In this document: one piece after another, positions 1,979-13,229 of the stretch
Numbering within the stretch: position 1 is the first letter of the stretch
Layout of the letters: each line of letters starts with the position of its first letter
From: Saliphagus infecundisoli
GTDB taxonomy: Archaea > Halobacteriota > Halobacteria > Halobacteriales > Natrialbaceae
Length of the DNA: 64,000 bases
Direction of reading: 5' to 3'
Assembly: GCF_020177375.1 (NCBI RefSeq)
Contig: NZ_JAIWHV010000009.1
Span: 1-64,000 of the forward strand
Program-made: the position numbers and the translations under genes
The notes under the pieces: model-generated
Database searches by the model: none
Told to the model about the DNA's origin: nothing
What the model saw: the letters and a program-made list of their open reading frames with translations, nothing else

Positions 1979-2030
1979 GAGAACGTTGCCTCCGTGGGGG
2001 CTGGTGCTGCTGCCAGACCCCAACGCGAGG

Positions 2031-2064
2031 AATCCCACGACTTCAGTCGTGTGGGGGATGTCAA
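2031..2064 (+). ncRNA. right-end hairpin, likely 3' part of the tnpB guide RNA
   Basis: AATCCCACGACTTCAGTCGT followed by GTGGGGGATGTCAA forms an imperfect stem-loop just after the tnpB stop. In IS200/IS605 elements the omega (right-end) RNA runs through this hairpin and continues into flanking DNA as the guide. Here the first flanking bases are GGGGTTTTTATTCGGG, which is the polB promoter. That an RNA is made is inferred from the family; only the hairpin is seen. Confidence 0.5.
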
Positions 2065-2068
2065 GGGG

Positions 2069-2076
2069 TTTTTATT
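2069..2076 (+). promoter_or_regulatory. TATA-like box of polB
   Basis: TTTTTATT lies about 25-30 bases before the polB ATG at 2099, the normal distance for a leaderless archaeal promoter. It sits 5 bases beyond the end of the tnpB element, so the insertion adjoins or has replaced the upstream control region. Confidence 0.5.
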
Positions 2077-2098
2077 CGGGCCCCGCCAACCCGGGGCC

Positions 2099-5000
2099 AT
2101 GAGCGAGGAGGCACAGACCGGGCTCGGCGACTACGCCGGCGAGGTGGACGACGGGTCCGGGGACGAGGGCGGAGAGGTGACCGGCTCGGGCGACCGGCTC
2201 GTCGAGGAGGCGATCGCGGTCGCCGGAAACGGTGGCTCCTCCCGGGCGGAGGTCGTCGACGTGGTCGCCGAGGCGCTCCCCGAGCCCCAGGGGGCCCTCG
2301 AGCTGGCGGTGATGCAGGTCGACTACACCATCGCCGGCCGGGGCGACGACGAGCGGCCGGTGATGCACGTCTTCGGCCGGACGAGGGACGGCGAGATCGA
2401 ACACGTCCGCGTCGTCGGCTTCCGCCCCTATTTCTACGCGCCGACCGCGAGCCTCGAGGGGCCGCCCGAGGAGCGCTACGACCGGCTCACGGGCAGCGAA
2501 ACCGAAGACGCCGAGGGCGAGCCCTACGAGAGCATCCGGGGGGAGCGCCTGACGAAGATCTTCGGCCAGACCCCGCGAGACGTCGGCCAGGTCAGAGACG
2601 AGTTCGACCACTACGAGGCTGACATCCTCTTTCCCAACCGGTTTCTGATCGACAAGGACGTCCGCAGCGGGATCCGCGTCCCGGAGCGACGCGCCGACGA
2701 CGACTCGCTCGTGGTTCCCCACGACGAGGTCGAGGCCTGCGAGGTCGAGGCCGCCCCGCGGGTCTGTACGTTCGACATCGAGGTGGACGACCGCTCTGGC
2801 TTTCCCGAGGACGGCGAGGAGCCGATCGTCTGTCTGACGAGTCACGACTCAGGTCGCGACGAGTACGTGATGTGGCTTTACGAGGCCCCCATCGGGGAGG
2901 GGCCGATCCCCGACGAAATCACGGCGTACGAGCCGATCGAGGGCAGGATCGACCACGAGATCCGTACATTCGCCGAGGAAGAGGCGATGCTCGAGGCCTT
3001 TATTGACTACGTGAGTGAGGATACCGATCCCGACGTCATCACTGGTTGGAACTGTCTTCCGGCGGATATCGACGTGCTCATGGCTGACGGAACCGAGAAA
3101 GAGATACGAAACGTCGAGATAGGTGACAACGTAGTCGGCTCCGACTCACAGCGGACGACCGTCACGGAAGTGACGAACAAGTGGCAGAGTGAGAAGTCGA
3201 TCCGCGAACTCTCATTGGCGGACGGAACCTCCCTTCGATCATCCGACGATCACCGGATCATGGTGGGTGACGACGACAGCGTCGGTTGGAAAGCGGGAAG
3301 CGAAATCGAGTCCGGTGACTACGTCCTCAAACCACGACGACTCCCCCTCGAAGAGACGTACGTGCCGACGCTTGCGGACCTCGTCCCGAGAGAGCGCCAG
3401 CGATACGCCGAGAAACAAACGATCTCCGAATTCAAGGAGGAGCTCCCATACGGTGCCGTAAGCGAGTTGGCCGATGCCTTCGACGCCTCCGTGGAAACGT
3501 TGTACCACCCACATACGACCGTCTGGACGCCGAGTCGCTGTCGGAAGGCGGCTGACCAGTACGAGATTCCCGTTCCGGACGGTGGGGTCGAATATCATGG
3601 TACGGGTGTTGATCTTGACCGAGAACTCACGCCCGAAGAGCTCTATTATGCCGGACTGATCCTGACGGACGGGTCCATCTCTCCGGAAGACGGAATCCGG
3701 TTCTACAACACGAAAAAAGAGCTCCATTACCGGTTCCCCGGCGAGAACCATCTCGAACCCGACGGAACGGGATGCTACAAGCAGAACGTGTTAGACTACG
3801 CGACGATGTATGCGTTCAACGGTCTCGGCATCCCGTTCGGGGACAAAAACGACGACGACGTCGATCTCTCGACGGTTTACGAACTTCCGACGGAATACAT
3901 CGGTCGCTTCCTCGCCGGGGCTCTCGACGGCGACGGTAGTGTTGCCCGAAGTGGAATCACGATCGCTGCCGAAAACCGATCGATCGGCGAGTGGTACGTG
4001 AAACTGTTCAAACGGCTCGGAATCTACGCCCAACAACGGGAGAACGTAGTCAGGGTTCCCGACGCCAAACGCGACGTCGATCGGCTGACGGATCACGTTC
4101 TCCCTCATATGGGACATCGCGAAAAGAAAGCAGCTCTCGAAGCATTCGAGGGCGGCAAAAGCGGACAGACGGAGAACATTCCGTACGCCTTGTTCGAAGC
4201 TGACGTCGGGACCGACGCCAAACAGATCGGAAACGACAAACATCGTCGAGGAATCAATCTCAAACGACATGAAACGAGTTTGGACGCGTGGGAGGAGTAC
4301 GTGTTCGTTGAGGTCACTAACATTTCGGTAACTGGTACCGAGACGACCTACGATATCGAAACGACGACGCATAATTTCGTCGCGGAAGGATGTCTCGTCC
4401 ACAATTGCGATGACTTTGACGCGCCGTACCTCCTCGACCGGCTAGAACGCCTCCAGGGTCCCCACCACGACTATGATCTCGACATCGATCGCCTCTCGCG
4501 GGTCGACGAAGTCTGGCGGAGCAACTGGGGCGGTCCCGACATCAAGGGCCGGGTCGTCTTCGACCTGCTCTATGGCTACCAGCGAATGGTTATCTCCGAA
4601 CTCGACTCTTACCGCCTGGATGCGGTCGGCGAGGCGGAGCTGGGCGTCGGGAAAGAACGCTATGCGGGGGATATCGGCGACCTCTGGGAGGACGACCCGA
4701 CCCAGCTCCTCGAATACAACCTCCGGGACGTCGAACTCTGCGTCGAACTCGACCGCCAACAGAATATCGTCCCGTTCTGGGACGAAGTGCGCGCGTTCGT
4801 CGGCTGCAAGTTAGAGGATGCCCCCACCCCCGGAGATGCGGTGGACATGTACGTTCTCCACGAGGCCTACGGCCGCTTCGCGTTGCCCTCGAAGGGCCAA
4901 CAGGACGCCGGCGAGGAGTACGAAGGCGGGGCGGTATTCGACCCGATCACGGGCGTCAAGGAGAACGTCACCGTCCTCGACCTGAAATCGCTGTACCCGA

Positions 5001-6226
5001 TGTGTATGGTGACCGTCAACGCCTCCCCGGAGACGCGGGTCGATCCCGAGAGCTACGACGGCGCGACCCACACCGCTCCCACCACACCCGAGCCCACCCA
5101 CTTCCGGCAGGAACCCGACGGGATCATCCGGGAGATGGTCAACGAACTACTCGCCGAGCGCGAGGAAAAAAAGGAACTGCGAAACGCCCACAACCCGGGC
5201 TCTCCGAAGTTCGAGCAGTACGACCGCCAGCAAGGAGCTGTCAAGGTTATTATGAATTCGCTCTATGGCGTGTCGGGGTGGGAACAGTTCCGGTTATATG
5301 ACAAGGACGCAGCATCCGCTATCACGGCCACTGGGCGCGAGGTAATCGAATTTACGGAAGAAGCCGCGAACGAACTTAATTATCAGGTGTCGTATGGTGA
5401 CACGGATTCAGTCATGCTCGAACTCGGTCCCGAAGTCACGAAGGAGGAAGCCATCGAGCAGTCGTTCGACATTGAGGAACACATCAACGAGCGCTACGAC
5501 CACTTCGCCCGGGACGTTCTCAATGCCGAGGACCACCGCTTCCAGATCGAGTTCGAGAAGCTCTACCGGCGCTTCTTCCAGGCGGGAAAGAAGAAACGCT
5601 ACGCAGGTCACATTACCTGGAAGGAGGGAAAGGACGTCGATACGATCGACATCGTCGGTTTCGAGTACCAGCGCTCGGACATCGCCCCGATTACCAAGGA
5701 GGTCCAGCATCGCGTCATCGAGATGATCGTCAAGGAGGGCGACGTCGAGGGGGCAAAGGAGTACCTCCACGGCGTCATCGAGGAGGTTCGGACCGGCGAG
5801 ATCTCCGTCGAGGAGATCGGCATCCCGGGCGGGATCGGGAAGCGACTCGACGACTACGACACGGACACCGCCCAGGTCCGCGGCGCAAAGTACGCGAACC
5901 GCCTGTTGGGAACCAACTTCCAGCGGGGAAGCAAGCCCAAACGGCTCTATCTGAAGCGGGTCGATCCCGCGTTCTTCCGACGGGTCGAGGACGAACGGGA
6001 GCTCGATGCCCGGACGGACCCGCTGTATCGAGCGTTCAAGCGCGATCCGGACGTCATCTGTTTCGAGTACGCAGACCAGCTCCCCGAGGAGTTCGAGGTC
6101 GACGACGACAAGATGTTGGAGAAGACCCTGAAGGGGCCGATTGCGCGCATTCTCGAGGCCCTGGGAATCTCCTGGGAGGAGGTCAAGTCGGGCCAGGAAC
6201 AGACCGGGCTGGACAGTTTCGTCTGA
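2099..6226 (+). CDS. polB: family B replicative DNA polymerase with intein
   Basis: 1375 residues as translated, of which 451 form an intein; the spliced extein would be about 924. Motifs in order: Exo I FDIEVDD (D226, E228), Exo II TGWN/CDDFD (split by the intein), Exo III YNLRDVEL, motif A DLKSLYP (D961), motif B KVIMNSLYG (K1049), motif C YGDTDS (D1101, D1103). Both proofreading and polymerase residues are present, so the enzyme should be active after splicing. The ATG at 2099 is chosen over the upstream frame start because the extra residues would come from the tnpB right end. The N-terminus has an acidic Glu/Asp/Gly-rich stretch of about 60 residues. Codon use is abnormal between motifs B and C (see separate entry). 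Confidence 0.95.
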   Translation: MSEEAQTGLGDYAGEVDDGSGDEGGEVTGSGDRLVEEAIAVAGNGGSSRAEVVDVVAEALPEPQGALELAVMQVDYTIAGRGDDERPVMHVFGRTRDGEIEHVRVVGFRPYFYAPTASLEGPPEERYDRLTGSETEDAEGEPYESIRGERLTKIFGQTPRDVGQVRDEFDHYEADILFPNRFLIDKDVRSGIRVPERRADDDSLVVPHDEVEACEVEAAPRVCTFDIEVDDRSGFPEDGEEPIVCLTSHDSGRDEYVMWLYEAPIGEGPIPDEITAYEPIEGRIDHEIRTFAEEEAMLEAFIDYVSEDTDPDVITGWNCLPADIDVLMADGTEKEIRNVEIGDNVVGSDSQRTTVTEVTNKWQSEKSIRELSLADGTSLRSSDDHRIMVGDDDSVGWKAGSEIESGDYVLKPRRLPLEETYVPTLADLVPRERQRYAEKQTISEFKEELPYGAVSELADAFDASVETLYHPHTTVWTPSRCRKAADQYEIPVPDGGVEYHGTGVDLDRELTPEELYYAGLILTDGSISPEDGIRFYNTKKELHYRFPGENHLEPDGTGCYKQNVLDYATMYAFNGLGIPFGDKNDDDVDLSTVYELPTEYIGRFLAGALDGDGSVARSGITIAAENRSIGEWYVKLFKRLGIYAQQRENVVRVPDAKRDVDRLTDHVLPHMGHREKKAALEAFEGGKSGQTENIPYALFEADVGTDAKQIGNDKHRRGINLKRHETSLDAWEEYVFVEVTNISVTGTETTYDIETTTHNFVAEGCLVHNCDDFDAPYLLDRLERLQGPHHDYDLDIDRLSRVDEVWRSNWGGPDIKGRVVFDLLYGYQRMVISELDSYRLDAVGEAELGVGKERYAGDIGDLWEDDPTQLLEYNLRDVELCVELDRQQNIVPFWDEVRAFVGCKLEDAPTPGDAVDMYVLHEAYGRFALPSKGQQDAGEEYEGGAVFDPITGVKENVTVLDLKSLYPMCMVTVNASPETRVDPESYDGATHTAPTTPEPTHFRQEPDGIIREMVNELLAEREEKKELRNAHNPGSPKFEQYDRQQGAVKVIMNSLYGVSGWEQFRLYDKDAASAITATGREVIEFTEEAANELNYQVSYGDTDSVMLELGPEVTKEEAIEQSFDIEEHINERYDHFARDVLNAEDHRFQIEFEKLYRRFFQAGKKKRYAGHITWKEGKDVDTIDIVGFEYQRSDIAPITKEVQHRVIEMIVKEGDVEGAKEYLHGVIEEVRTGEISVEEIGIPGGIGKRLDDYDTDTAQVRGAKYANRLLGTNFQRGSKPKRLYLKRVDPAFFRRVEDERELDARTDPLYRAFKRDPDVICFEYADQLPEEFEVDDDKMLEKTLKGPIARILEALGISWEEVKSGQEQTGLDSFV
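3053..4405 (+). other. intein in PolB Exo II site, with LAGLIDADG endonuclease
   Basis: 451 residues, from Cys1 of CLPADIDVLMADG to the terminal HN, followed by extein Cys+1 (CDDFDAPY). Removing it joins TGWN to CDDFD and restores Exo II. Splicing blocks: N-terminal block A at CLPADIDV, a block B-like SSDDHRIM, C-terminal TYDIETTTHNF and EGCLVHN/C. Two LAGLIDADG-type motifs are present, YAGLILTDGSI (about 3646-3678) and FLAGALDGDGSV (about 3907-3942), so a homing endonuclease domain is retained. Third positions are less GC-rich than in the exteins, as expected for a mobile insert. The site differs from the three classical PolB intein sites at motifs A, B and C. Confidence 0.93.
5246..5410 (+). 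other. AT-rich codon tract between PolB motifs B and C
   Basis: These 55 codons begin right after the Lys of motif B and end at the Ser of motif C. By hand count about 31 of 55 third positions are G or C, against about 40 of 51 just upstream and 50 of 58 just downstream. Codons such as TTA, GTA, ATT, AAT, TAT and TCA cluster here. The protein sequence is normal. The two ends coincide with the classical PolB intein insertion sites. Confidence 0.75.
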
Positions 6227-10445: not shown

Positions 10446-13229
10446 ATGAACCGGTCGCTTCTCAGCGGCGTCTTCTCGGTCCTCAGTAGCAAGGTCGTCA
10501 TCATGGTCATCGGGCTGGTGACGACGCCGGTTCTCTACCGGCTCCTCGAGCCCTCGGGCTTTGGCGACTACGCGTCTCTGCAGTCCGTGTTCGCCATCTT
10601 CATGATCTTCGTCAGCTCGGGGATCACCGACGGCGTCCGGAAGTTCGTCGCCGAGGAGCGGGATCTGCCCGACTGGGAGGCCCACGTCGTGGGCTACTAC
10701 TTTCGGCTCGCGGTCGTGTTCGCGGTCGTCGGCGCCGTCGCGCTCTTTATCGCCGCCCGCGAGGGGCTGGTCGCGGCCATCTGGGGGACGGAGTTCACGC
10801 CGTACTTCTACGTCCTCGCGGGCCTCGTCGTCACCGCCCAGTTCCGGGCCTACGCCCGAAAAACGCTCATGGGATTCGGCCTCGAACGCTACTCCGAACC
10901 CCTGAACGCCCTCGACACCGCCGCGTTCGCGGCCTTCGCGATCCCGCTGGTCTACCTCGGATATGGCGTTCTCGGCGCGCTCGTCGGGCTGATGCTCGCG
11001 AGCTTTCTCGTGGCCATCATCGGGTTCTTCCTGGTCCAGAGACAGGTCCCGCTGTCGTATCTGGTCCGACGGCCGCCCGCTCACTTTCCCCGTCGGACGA
11101 TGTTCACGTTCAACTCGCTGAGCATCGTCCTCGTCCTGTTTCTGTCCTCGCTGTACCACATCGACGTCGTCATGCTCCAGACGTTCCGCGAGAGCTCCGA
11201 GGTCGGCAACTACAAGGCGGCGCTGACGCTCGCGGAGTTCCTCTGGTTCGTTCCCCTCGCGCTCCAGACGGTCTACGTCCACTCGATGTCGGAGCTGTGG
11301 TCCCAGGACAGGATCGATCGGATCACGACCATCGCCTCGCAGACCACCCGATACACCTTCCTGCTCACTGCCGTGATGGCGGTCGGGCTCGCTGCCCTCG
11401 CGGACGCCGTCGTTCCGCTCTACTTCGGCCCCGAAGCGACACCCGCGGTCGAACCGCTACTGCTCTTGTTGCCGGGCGCGCTGGGCTTTGCGCTCGCGCG
11501 GCCGATCCTCGCGATCTCCCAGGGGAAAGGCAAGCTCCGGTACCCGATCGTCGCGACGGGCACTGCCGCCTGCATCAACCTCGTCCTGAACTTGCTTCTG
11601 ATCCCCCGCTACGGGATGGCCGGCGCGGCGATCGCGACCTCCACCGGCTACGGCTCGATGTTCCTCTTTCACTGCCTGAGCGCGCGCCAGGTCGGCTTCT
11701 ACCCGCTCTCGGACGCCAGGATCGGTCGAGTCGCGCTGACGACGGTCCTCGCGGCCGTTCCGATCTTCCTCCTGGCCGACGCGCTCTCGATAACGATCCC
11801 GATCCCCGTCCTCGGAGCGGCTCCCGTCTCGCTGTTCGTCGTCCCCCCCGTCGGCTTCCTGATCTTCGCCGGCTTCACCCTCCTGACGGGGGCGATAGGG
11901 GTCGACGAGACCGCCTCGCTGTTCGCGGAGTTCCCCGATCCGATCGGTTCGACGGCGACGACGGCGATCGATCGTCTTCAGTCGTTCGATCTCCGGGAGC
12001 TATCGGGGAACTCCCTCCAGCTCCTGTTGATCGGCGGCGGGATACTGTTGCTCGTCGTCGGCCTCGCGTTCGCCCTGGTCGGTCCCGGAGTGGGGGACTC
12101 GCCGACGGCCGGTTCCGGCGACGACCCCGGGCCGGAAACGGATGCCCCGGTCGACACGACAGGAGAGAACTCGACGGGATCGACCGGGAGTACGGACGGA
12201 AACGGGACGACGTCCGAGTCGGCGTCGCCCGAGGACGGAACCGACACGGCGTCGACGGGGGAGACGCCGCCCGACTCTCCGAACACGACCGATGACGGGG
12301 AGATCCTTCCGGGGGAGGCGGATCAGGAGGAGGTTCCCCTCGAGTCGGAGTCCGAGGCCACGGACGCCGGCGACCCCGAATCTGAATCCGAGACCGAGAC
12401 GTCGGGCGACATCGGTGGAGAGGAGTCGACCGACAGCCCGACCGAGACGGAGACCGACACGCCGGCCGAAACGTCGGCGACCGATACTCCGACCGAAACC
12501 GAGACGCCGACCGCGACGGAAACCGAGACCGAGGAGCCCACGGAATCGGAATCATCGACGCCGACCGAGACTGAAACCGACATCGACACCGACACGGCAA
12601 CGGAAACGGAGACCGAGACGGAGACGGAAACCGAGACCGACACCGAGACGCCGACGGCGACGGAGACGCCAAACGAGACTGAGTCTCCGACCGAGGCGAC
12701 GGAGACCGAGCCACCGACGGAGACGGAAACAGCGACGGAGACGGAAACCGAGTCACAGACGGAGACGGAAACCGAGACCGAAACGGCAACCGACACTCCG
12801 ACGCCCAACGGGACAGACACGGGGACCGACTCTCCGACCGACACCGAGACGGCGACGGCAACGGAGATGCCGACGGCGACGGAGACGCCGAACGAGACCG
12901 AGTCTCCGACCGAGACGACGGAGACGGAAACCGGCACCGACACCGAGACGGCGACCGACGGCGAGACCGCAACCGACACCGAGGCAGAGACCCCGAACGG
13001 GACCGAAACCCAATCGCCGACGGAGACCGGGACGTCCTCGGCGACCGATACGTCGACCGACAACGGGACGGCGACCTCGTCCGACACCGGGACACAAAGC
13101 GCGGAGCCGACCGACACCGAGACGACGGAAACCGACGAACCGATGACGACGGCGTCGACGGAGACCGACCGTCCGGTGGGCAACGAGACAACGACCGAGA
13201 ACGGAACCGAACCGGCCGACGGAAACTGA
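10446..13229 (+). CDS. polysaccharide flippase (Wzx/RfbX type) with long Thr/Glu-rich tail
   Basis: 927 residues. The first about 500 residues are a multi-spanning membrane domain beginning LLSGVFSVLSSKVVIMVIGLVTTP, typical of oligosaccharide flippases that turn lipid-linked glycans to the outer face. A further membrane helix (LLLIGGGILLLVVGLAFALVG, about residues 523-545) precedes a tail of about 380 residues made almost only of Thr, Glu, Ser, Pro, Asp and Gly. The family is usually about 450-520 residues, so the tail is an extra. It has N-x-T/S sequons (NETES, NGT) and would fit a heavily glycosylated, wall-spanning stalk, but its side of the membrane is inferred. First gene of the surface-glycan region. 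Confidence 0.85.
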   Translation: MNRSLLSGVFSVLSSKVVIMVIGLVTTPVLYRLLEPSGFGDYASLQSVFAIFMIFVSSGITDGVRKFVAEERDLPDWEAHVVGYYFRLAVVFAVVGAVALFIAAREGLVAAIWGTEFTPYFYVLAGLVVTAQFRAYARKTLMGFGLERYSEPLNALDTAAFAAFAIPLVYLGYGVLGALVGLMLASFLVAIIGFFLVQRQVPLSYLVRRPPAHFPRRTMFTFNSLSIVLVLFLSSLYHIDVVMLQTFRESSEVGNYKAALTLAEFLWFVPLALQTVYVHSMSELWSQDRIDRITTIASQTTRYTFLLTAVMAVGLAALADAVVPLYFGPEATPAVEPLLLLLPGALGFALARPILAISQGKGKLRYPIVATGTAACINLVLNLLLIPRYGMAGAAIATSTGYGSMFLFHCLSARQVGFYPLSDARIGRVALTTVLAAVPIFLLADALSITIPIPVLGAAPVSLFVVPPVGFLIFAGFTLLTGAIGVDETASLFAEFPDPIGSTATTAIDRLQSFDLRELSGNSLQLLLIGGGILLLVVGLAFALVGPGVGDSPTAGSGDDPGPETDAPVDTTGENSTGSTGSTDGNGTTSESASPEDGTDTASTGETPPDSPNTTDDGEILPGEADQEEVPLESESEATDAGDPESESETETSGDIGGEESTDSPTETETDTPAETSATDTPTETETPTATETETEEPTESESSTPTETETDIDTDTATETETETETETETDTETPTATETPNETESPTEATETEPPTETETATETETESQTETETETETATDTPTPNGTDTGTDSPTDTETATATEMPTATETPNETESPTETTETETGTDTETATDGETATDTEAETPNGTETQSPTETGTSSATDTSTDNGTATSSDTGTQSAEPTDTETTETDEPMTTASTETDRPVGNETTTENGTEPADGN
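12440..13190 (+). repeat. low-complexity Thr/Glu codon repeats in flippase tail
   Basis: Runs of GAGACGGAAACC-like hexamers encode (TE)n. A longer direct repeat encoding TATETPNETESPTE occurs at about 12651-12710 and again at 12870-12930. The units vary in third positions, so the repeat is not a recent perfect expansion. Long open frames on the opposite strand here are artefacts of the repeat. Confidence 0.8.

Follow-up and report, generated by a model that had tools for sequence, protein, structure and literature searches.

Why does a short stretch of the GC3-rich polB gene of Saliphagus infecundisoli use AT-rich codons between two vacant intein sites? The patch (5246-5410, + strand) lies in frame within the polB ORF and encodes VIMNSLYG...YGDTDSV. 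The window is the whole stretch of DNA analysed, 64,000 nucleotides of contig NZ_JAIWHV010000009.1. The patch is probably a homing-site halo, a part of polB flanking sites b and c that was replaced as a block when inteins were gained or lost. Such replacement would explain why its history and codon usage differ from those of the rest of polB.

The polB gene, its patch, and its resident intein

The features of the gene are listed below.

1994..6226, + strand: polB ORF, haloarchaeal family B DNA polymerase with one intein (Pfam DNA_pol_B, E=3.7e-49, and DNA_pol_B_exo1; the extein aligns with 121 Natrialbaceae polB genes); the ATG at 2099 is a possible true start
3017..3052, + strand: 5' flank of the d intein, GC3 lowered (d ±12 codons 0.74 vs 0.85 further out)
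3053..4405, + strand: polB-d-type intein of 451 aa with C...HN|C and a LAGLIDADG homing endonuclease domain, at TGWN|CDDFD in the Exo II region (Pfam Intein_splicing, LAGLIDADG_3)
4406..4441, + strand: 3' flank of the d intein, GC3 lowered (same comparison, 0.74 vs 0.85)
4987..4988, + strand: empty intein site a (motif A, K|S), an internal control whose flanks are not AT-rich (a ±12 codons GC3 0.91)
5246..5410, + strand: AT-rich patch, minimum-GC3 55-codon window of the extein (0.55)
5257..5258, + strand: empty intein site b (motif B, N|S), VKVIMN|SLYG (31 of 121 relatives have a b intein of 411-416 aa here)
5258..5401, + strand: b-c tract of 48 codons, AT-rich allele of class R, a separately exchanged cassette (based on profiles of GC3 and divergence, the linkage map of the classes, and tests on sister pairs)
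5401..5402, + strand: empty intein site c (motif C, D|T), YGD|TDS (c inteins of about 439 aa occur here in 4 of 121 Natrialbaceae genes and in 7 of 40 from Halorubrum)
5402..5567, + strand: zone 3' of c, codon indices 585-641, reached by replacement tracts in some sister pairs (judged from where the divergent segments of close pairs end on the right); little affected in Saliphagus polB itself

Two other ORFs of the window were also noted. Positions 671-1978, just upstream of polB, encode a TnpB-type RNA-guided endonuclease (NCBIfam guided_TnpB), and 10446-13229 is the ORF of a flippase-like membrane protein with a long repetitive Thr/Glu/Ser-rich C-terminal tail.

The sequence-only reading described an AT-rich codon tract in a GC3-rich polB, ending at the classical motif B and motif C intein sites. 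Both points are borne out. The GC3 of the patch (Met/Trp excluded) is 0.55, compared with 0.84 in the 100 codons upstream, 0.82 in the 100 codons downstream, and 0.84 in the remaining extein. Sliding-window GC3, a check proposed in that reading, placed the lowest 55-codon window of the extein at the patch. None of 2000 shuffles, in which codons were permuted within amino acids, was as low (p about 0.0005 scan-wide; fixed-position and scanning versions were both used). The edges match the b (5257/5258) and c (5401/5402) insertion points, which were located empirically from the junctions of intein-bearing relatives. GC3 drops of comparable size were also found in a few others of the 35 putative genes of the window. 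The depth of the patch alone is not unique; the notable part is its position.

Saliphagus polB combines an AT-rich R allele at b-c, without an intein there, with a true intein at site d, which the sequence-only reading did not mention. The d intein contains a splicing domain, a homing endonuclease (HEN) domain, and C...HN|C junctions (Pfam, NCBIfam, and junction alignment), as expected of a LAGLIDADG intein. Inteins of equal length were found at the identical insertion point in five other Natrialbaceae polB genes. Its position and rarity suggest that it corresponds to the allele called polB-d in PMC4071816. The GC3 of the d intein is 0.67, and that of the flanking codons is lowered too. Among the Natrialbaceae, the GC3 shift of the d flanks was -0.27 in occupied alleles and -0.02 in empty ones (p=1e-4). 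The occupied flanks (0.57) match the composition of the intein itself (0.58), and the empty alleles stand at 0.84. At d and a, which are seldom used in this family, the GC3 dip was seen in occupied alleles only. The lowered-GC3 flanks at 3017..3052 and 4406..4441 were likely co-converted with the d intein.

Block replacement between sites b and c

The Natrialbaceae polB genes were picked by organism names, their inteins were removed, and the exteins were codon-aligned (n=121, including the Saliphagus gene). Inteins were found at b in 31 genes, at d in 6, and at a and c in 4 each. The dip is family-wide and confined to b-c, where the 11-codon GC3 means fall from about 0.86 to about 0.70; there is none at site a. 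Saliphagus ranks 23rd of the 121 genes in dip depth. The tract also has the highest synonymous divergence in polB, with third-position differences in 53% of comparisons vs 34% elsewhere. Its distances follow those of the rest of the gene less well than most other windows do. A tree of the tract itself gained 750 lnL over the rest-of-gene tree, compared with 210-540 for other 48-codon windows; the test favours the own-segment tree in every window, so only the relative size of the gain counts. The segment phylogeny proposed by the sequence-only reading thus shows a history that differs from that of the rest of polB.

That reading also held that the same low GC3 in close relatives that never carried inteins would speak against it. 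The objection stands in form, as the dip extends over the family and includes empty alleles, but these lineages exchange and lose inteins, so that "never carried" cannot be established. The polB genes of six lineages without an intein in the sampled gene (L480, L487, and L491-L494) have no b-c dip.

The b-c tracts form two classes: the AT-rich class R (40 genomes over many genera, including Saliphagus) and the GC-rich class N (81 genomes). Their codon differences are strong over codons 536-584 and near baseline beyond; the classes were defined on the tract itself, and the evidential part is only the sharp drop outside these codons. Sister species can belong to opposite classes. Genomes L199 and L186 have near-equal proteins and differ at 6% of third positions overall, but at 67% in the tract. 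The b intein is carried by 7 of 40 R and 24 of 81 N genomes (p=0.19, 121 Natrialbaceae), and this non-significant association does not allow R to be read simply as the intein-free class. One genome (L165) of an otherwise mostly GC-rich-tract genus without b/c inteins has an R tract, showing that the tract can move without any intein seen. The R tract nearest to that of Saliphagus among relatives from other genera (L215) is likewise empty at b and c.

Close pairs indicate how the tract is exchanged. Among their strongest anomalous segments, 38 of 43 cover the b-c tract, with left edges clustered near b and right edges at c or 15-55 codons beyond. Motifs B and C are not the most conserved DNA stretches of polB, and homology anchors at these motifs were rejected as the cause of the edges. 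The sister-pair test included 48 independent Natrialbaceae pairs, of which 17 were discordant and 31 concordant for the b intein. In the discordant pairs the third-position divergence was 0.49 in the tract, 0.17 in the background, and 0.17 upstream of b; in the concordant pairs the tract value was 0.26. The two groups differ in the tract (MWU, p=1.6e-5) and not upstream of b (p=0.42). The flank is thus replaced where the b intein has been gained or lost, as is characteristic of a co-conversion tract. Pairs alike in class and b state diverge at background rate (tract 0.122, rest 0.116), so the tract is exchanged as a block and local hypermutation was rejected. Taken together, the excess in discordant pairs, the lack of an upstream excess, and the background rate within a class point to block replacement 3' of b that accompanies the gain or loss of inteins.

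Within one genus, the flank can be seen to travel with the intein. In Natrinema, the b+ genomes carry near-identical inteins and differ by 0.04-0.10 in the tract and 0.02-0.07 in the downstream flank, compared with 0.21-0.25 in the remaining gene. The compositions at d and a point the same way; family-wide, the partial Mantel value for the b tract is weak (0.16, p=0.10). The sister-pair test in Haloarcula (5 v 5) was non-significant for the tract and significant for the upstream flank (p=0.008). In Halorubrum it was non-significant, the tract being divergent in concordant pairs as well. Genus-level intein occupancy did not correlate with the dip (rho -0.07).

Intein sites in other genera and replication genes

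Low GC3 recurs at intein sites of two further replication genes, MCM and DP2, in the Natrialbaceae and in Halorubrum. In Halorubrum MCM, it was found only at codons 328-376 and about 400, which are the places of intein insertion. Halorubrum DP2 is mostly at 0.85-1.0, except for codons 640-700 around RRN|CDGDED, and 15 intein-free alleles share this exception. In Halorubrum polB (n=40), the dips are centred on b and on c, recover in between, and fade with distance from the insertion points. Over MCM, DP2, and polB of this genus, 45 of 46 low-GC3 windows adjoin an intein site. DP2 of Saliphagus (L422), which is intein-free, has only a weak form (0.80 vs 0.89). The MCM gene of Saliphagus (L473) is a 2341-aa open frame, a length that implies several inteins. 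As controls, a DP2 N-terminal search missed the intein site and serves as a noisy control only, and a RadA P-loop search returned no loci at the cut-off used.

The group means of site GC3 are about 0.55-0.78, a narrow spread across hosts at 0.78 to 0.96. In low-GC3 hosts, the site GC3 is slightly above that of the host in most cases, with 6 of 7 values shifted upward. The narrow spread and the upward shift are better accounted for by a mobile unit with a compositional history of its own, or by escape regardless of direction, than by mutation biased towards AT.

At site c of Halorubrum, the empty alleles have a GC3 of 0.47, the occupied flanks 0.75, and the c inteins 0.76. The alleles also differ in amino acids on both sides of c (L289-L328, extein codons about 574-598). 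The occupied ones are mostly GHDVAYGD|TDSVMLSLGQEVD, and the empty ones are mostly NYQV.YGD or DRKVTYGD|...LSL-.D.S. These differences are likely due to co-conversion at the protein level.

Origin of the halos and relation to known systems

Homing with co-conversion is the probable mechanism. The HEN of a b or c intein would cut an empty polB, and repair would copy the intein together with adjoining extein DNA from the donor. Copying may run mostly 3' from b, through c, and to both sides at d, so that the mobile unit would consist of an intein together with between tens of bp and about 300 bp of flank. Where sites are seldom used (a, d), such flanks are seen in occupied alleles alone. At heavily used sites (polB-b, polB-c, MCM, and DP2), most lineages of intein-rich groups have them, including those now empty. 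The HEN as trigger, the direction of the events, and the descent of empty R alleles from formerly occupied or co-converted ones are suggested by these patterns. It is possible that the Saliphagus lineage carried and then lost a b or c intein. Several observations speak against the halo reading: intein presence does not predict class family-wide, genus occupancy does not predict the dip, the tract of L165 switched without an intein being seen, and the sampled relatives, viruses, and plasmids contain no low-GC donor. Simple scars also do not predict that Halorubrum c-empty alleles lie below the occupied flanks.

The scar model leaves this last point unexplained, and it is mainly for this reason that recoded homing-resistant alleles are retained as an alternative, although a rather unlikely one. 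Recurrent HEN attack would select synonymous changes that break recognition or flank homology, and the Saliphagus R allele would be a resistance allele. Such recoding would look AT-rich because the hosts are GC3-rich. In a broader and equally doubtful form, haloarchaeal replication genes would carry resistant alleles, silently recoded over about 50-150 bp to either side of the cut, which would block invasion by taking away recognition and the homology needed for repair. These alleles would persist in several genera as balanced polymorphisms while host and intein compete in an arms race, and Saliphagus would hold a resistant polB-b/c allele. Empty alleles are indeed equal to or below occupied ones at the MCM and DP2 sites, and the effect is striking at Halorubrum polB-c, but at d and a the recoded alleles are the occupied ones. 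Several sister contrasts pair an empty R genome with a b+ N genome; b inteins, however, are not significantly depleted in R. The sites of low-GC3 hosts shift upward rather than downward, and synonymous diversity is elevated at intein sites, whereas the tract evolves at background rate within a class. The halo spans ±24 codons, up to 60, which exceeds a recognition site of 14-40 bp. According to PMC3024317, less flank homology reduces homing efficiency from 90% to 20%, but HENs tolerate single synonymous changes.

It is unlikely that the tract was imported from one particular donor of low GC, such as a Haloquadratum-like archaeon, a nanohaloarchaeon, or a virus. The codons are AT-rich, the GC3 of the inteins is below that of the host, and a Haloquadratum polB with three inteins has been reported (PMC10643990). 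However, the R codons match those of the sampled low-GC3 haloarchaeal relatives, in which Haloquadratum was not knowingly included, no better than codons shuffled within amino acids. Viral PolBs are 36-41% identical, and the best plasmid copy is 68% identical. No codon sharing or close polB copy was found in these relatives, haloviruses, or plasmids. The sequence-only reading had proposed homing followed by intein loss, or co-conversion of flanks from an intein-bearing donor of lower GC. Its link to intein sites is supported by the edges at b and c, the replacement that tracks the b intein, the recurrence in MCM and DP2, and the dip at d and a only if occupied; the donor did not turn up among the genomes sampled.

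Break-induced mutagenesis, in which single strands exposed by repeated cutting undergo error-prone or deamination-prone repair that lifts the synonymous rate and lowers GC, is very improbable. It would account for Halorubrum dips that are centred on the insertion points and decay with distance. It does not fit the lack of excess rate in close pairs of the same class and b state, change that arrives in jumps, an N-to-R spectrum rich in C>G and C>A, or low-GC3 hosts that are not further lowered. An influence of conserved active-site motifs on codon choice (through translation pausing or folding), independent of inteins, is likewise very improbable: intein sites sit in catalytic motifs and the two are confounded, but polB motif A and the Exo motifs have no dip in empty alleles, lineages without an intein in the sampled gene have no b-c dip, tract replacement follows b presence, and divergence is elevated rather than constrained.

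The homing-site halo thus bears on how inteins are studied. Intein histories are usually inferred from which genes have the element and which lack it. A halo that persists in the host gene and can be measured would record homing traffic even in genes that no longer hold an intein, and invasion and loss might then be counted. In haloarchaeal polB, mcm, and DP2, silent-site trees and tests of codon usage are also locally distorted by halos. The choice between scars and resistance alleles as the nature of empty halos is a testable question on how genomes live with homing elements.

Co-conversion beside homing sites (cox1, mcm-d) and homing of a polB intein by gene conversion are already known; no prior account of codon halos beside the intein sites of several replication genes was found in the open-access literature. 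The available parts of PMC3024317 and PMC4071816 concern the same gene, sites, and element type, with homology-dependent recombinational homing. According to the former, the Haloferax polB intein homes in vivo by gene conversion that depends on flank homology. Codon-usage halos and replacement of the b-c block are not reported in those parts. In the plant mitochondrial cox1 group I intron (PMC3192709), the co-conversion tract resembles the halo in that donor DNA replaces the flank of the homing site, mainly downstream, and that the tract is extendable and can outlast the element. The present halo differs in that it concerns archaeal replication-gene inteins, with altered codon usage in many lineages, two neighbouring sites, and two long-lived allele classes. 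In mcm-d (PMC10643990), a flanking Pro was changed to Ser by co-conversion during haloarchaeal intein invasion. That change involves one residue, which is needed for splicing, whereas the halo described here involves tens of silent codons.
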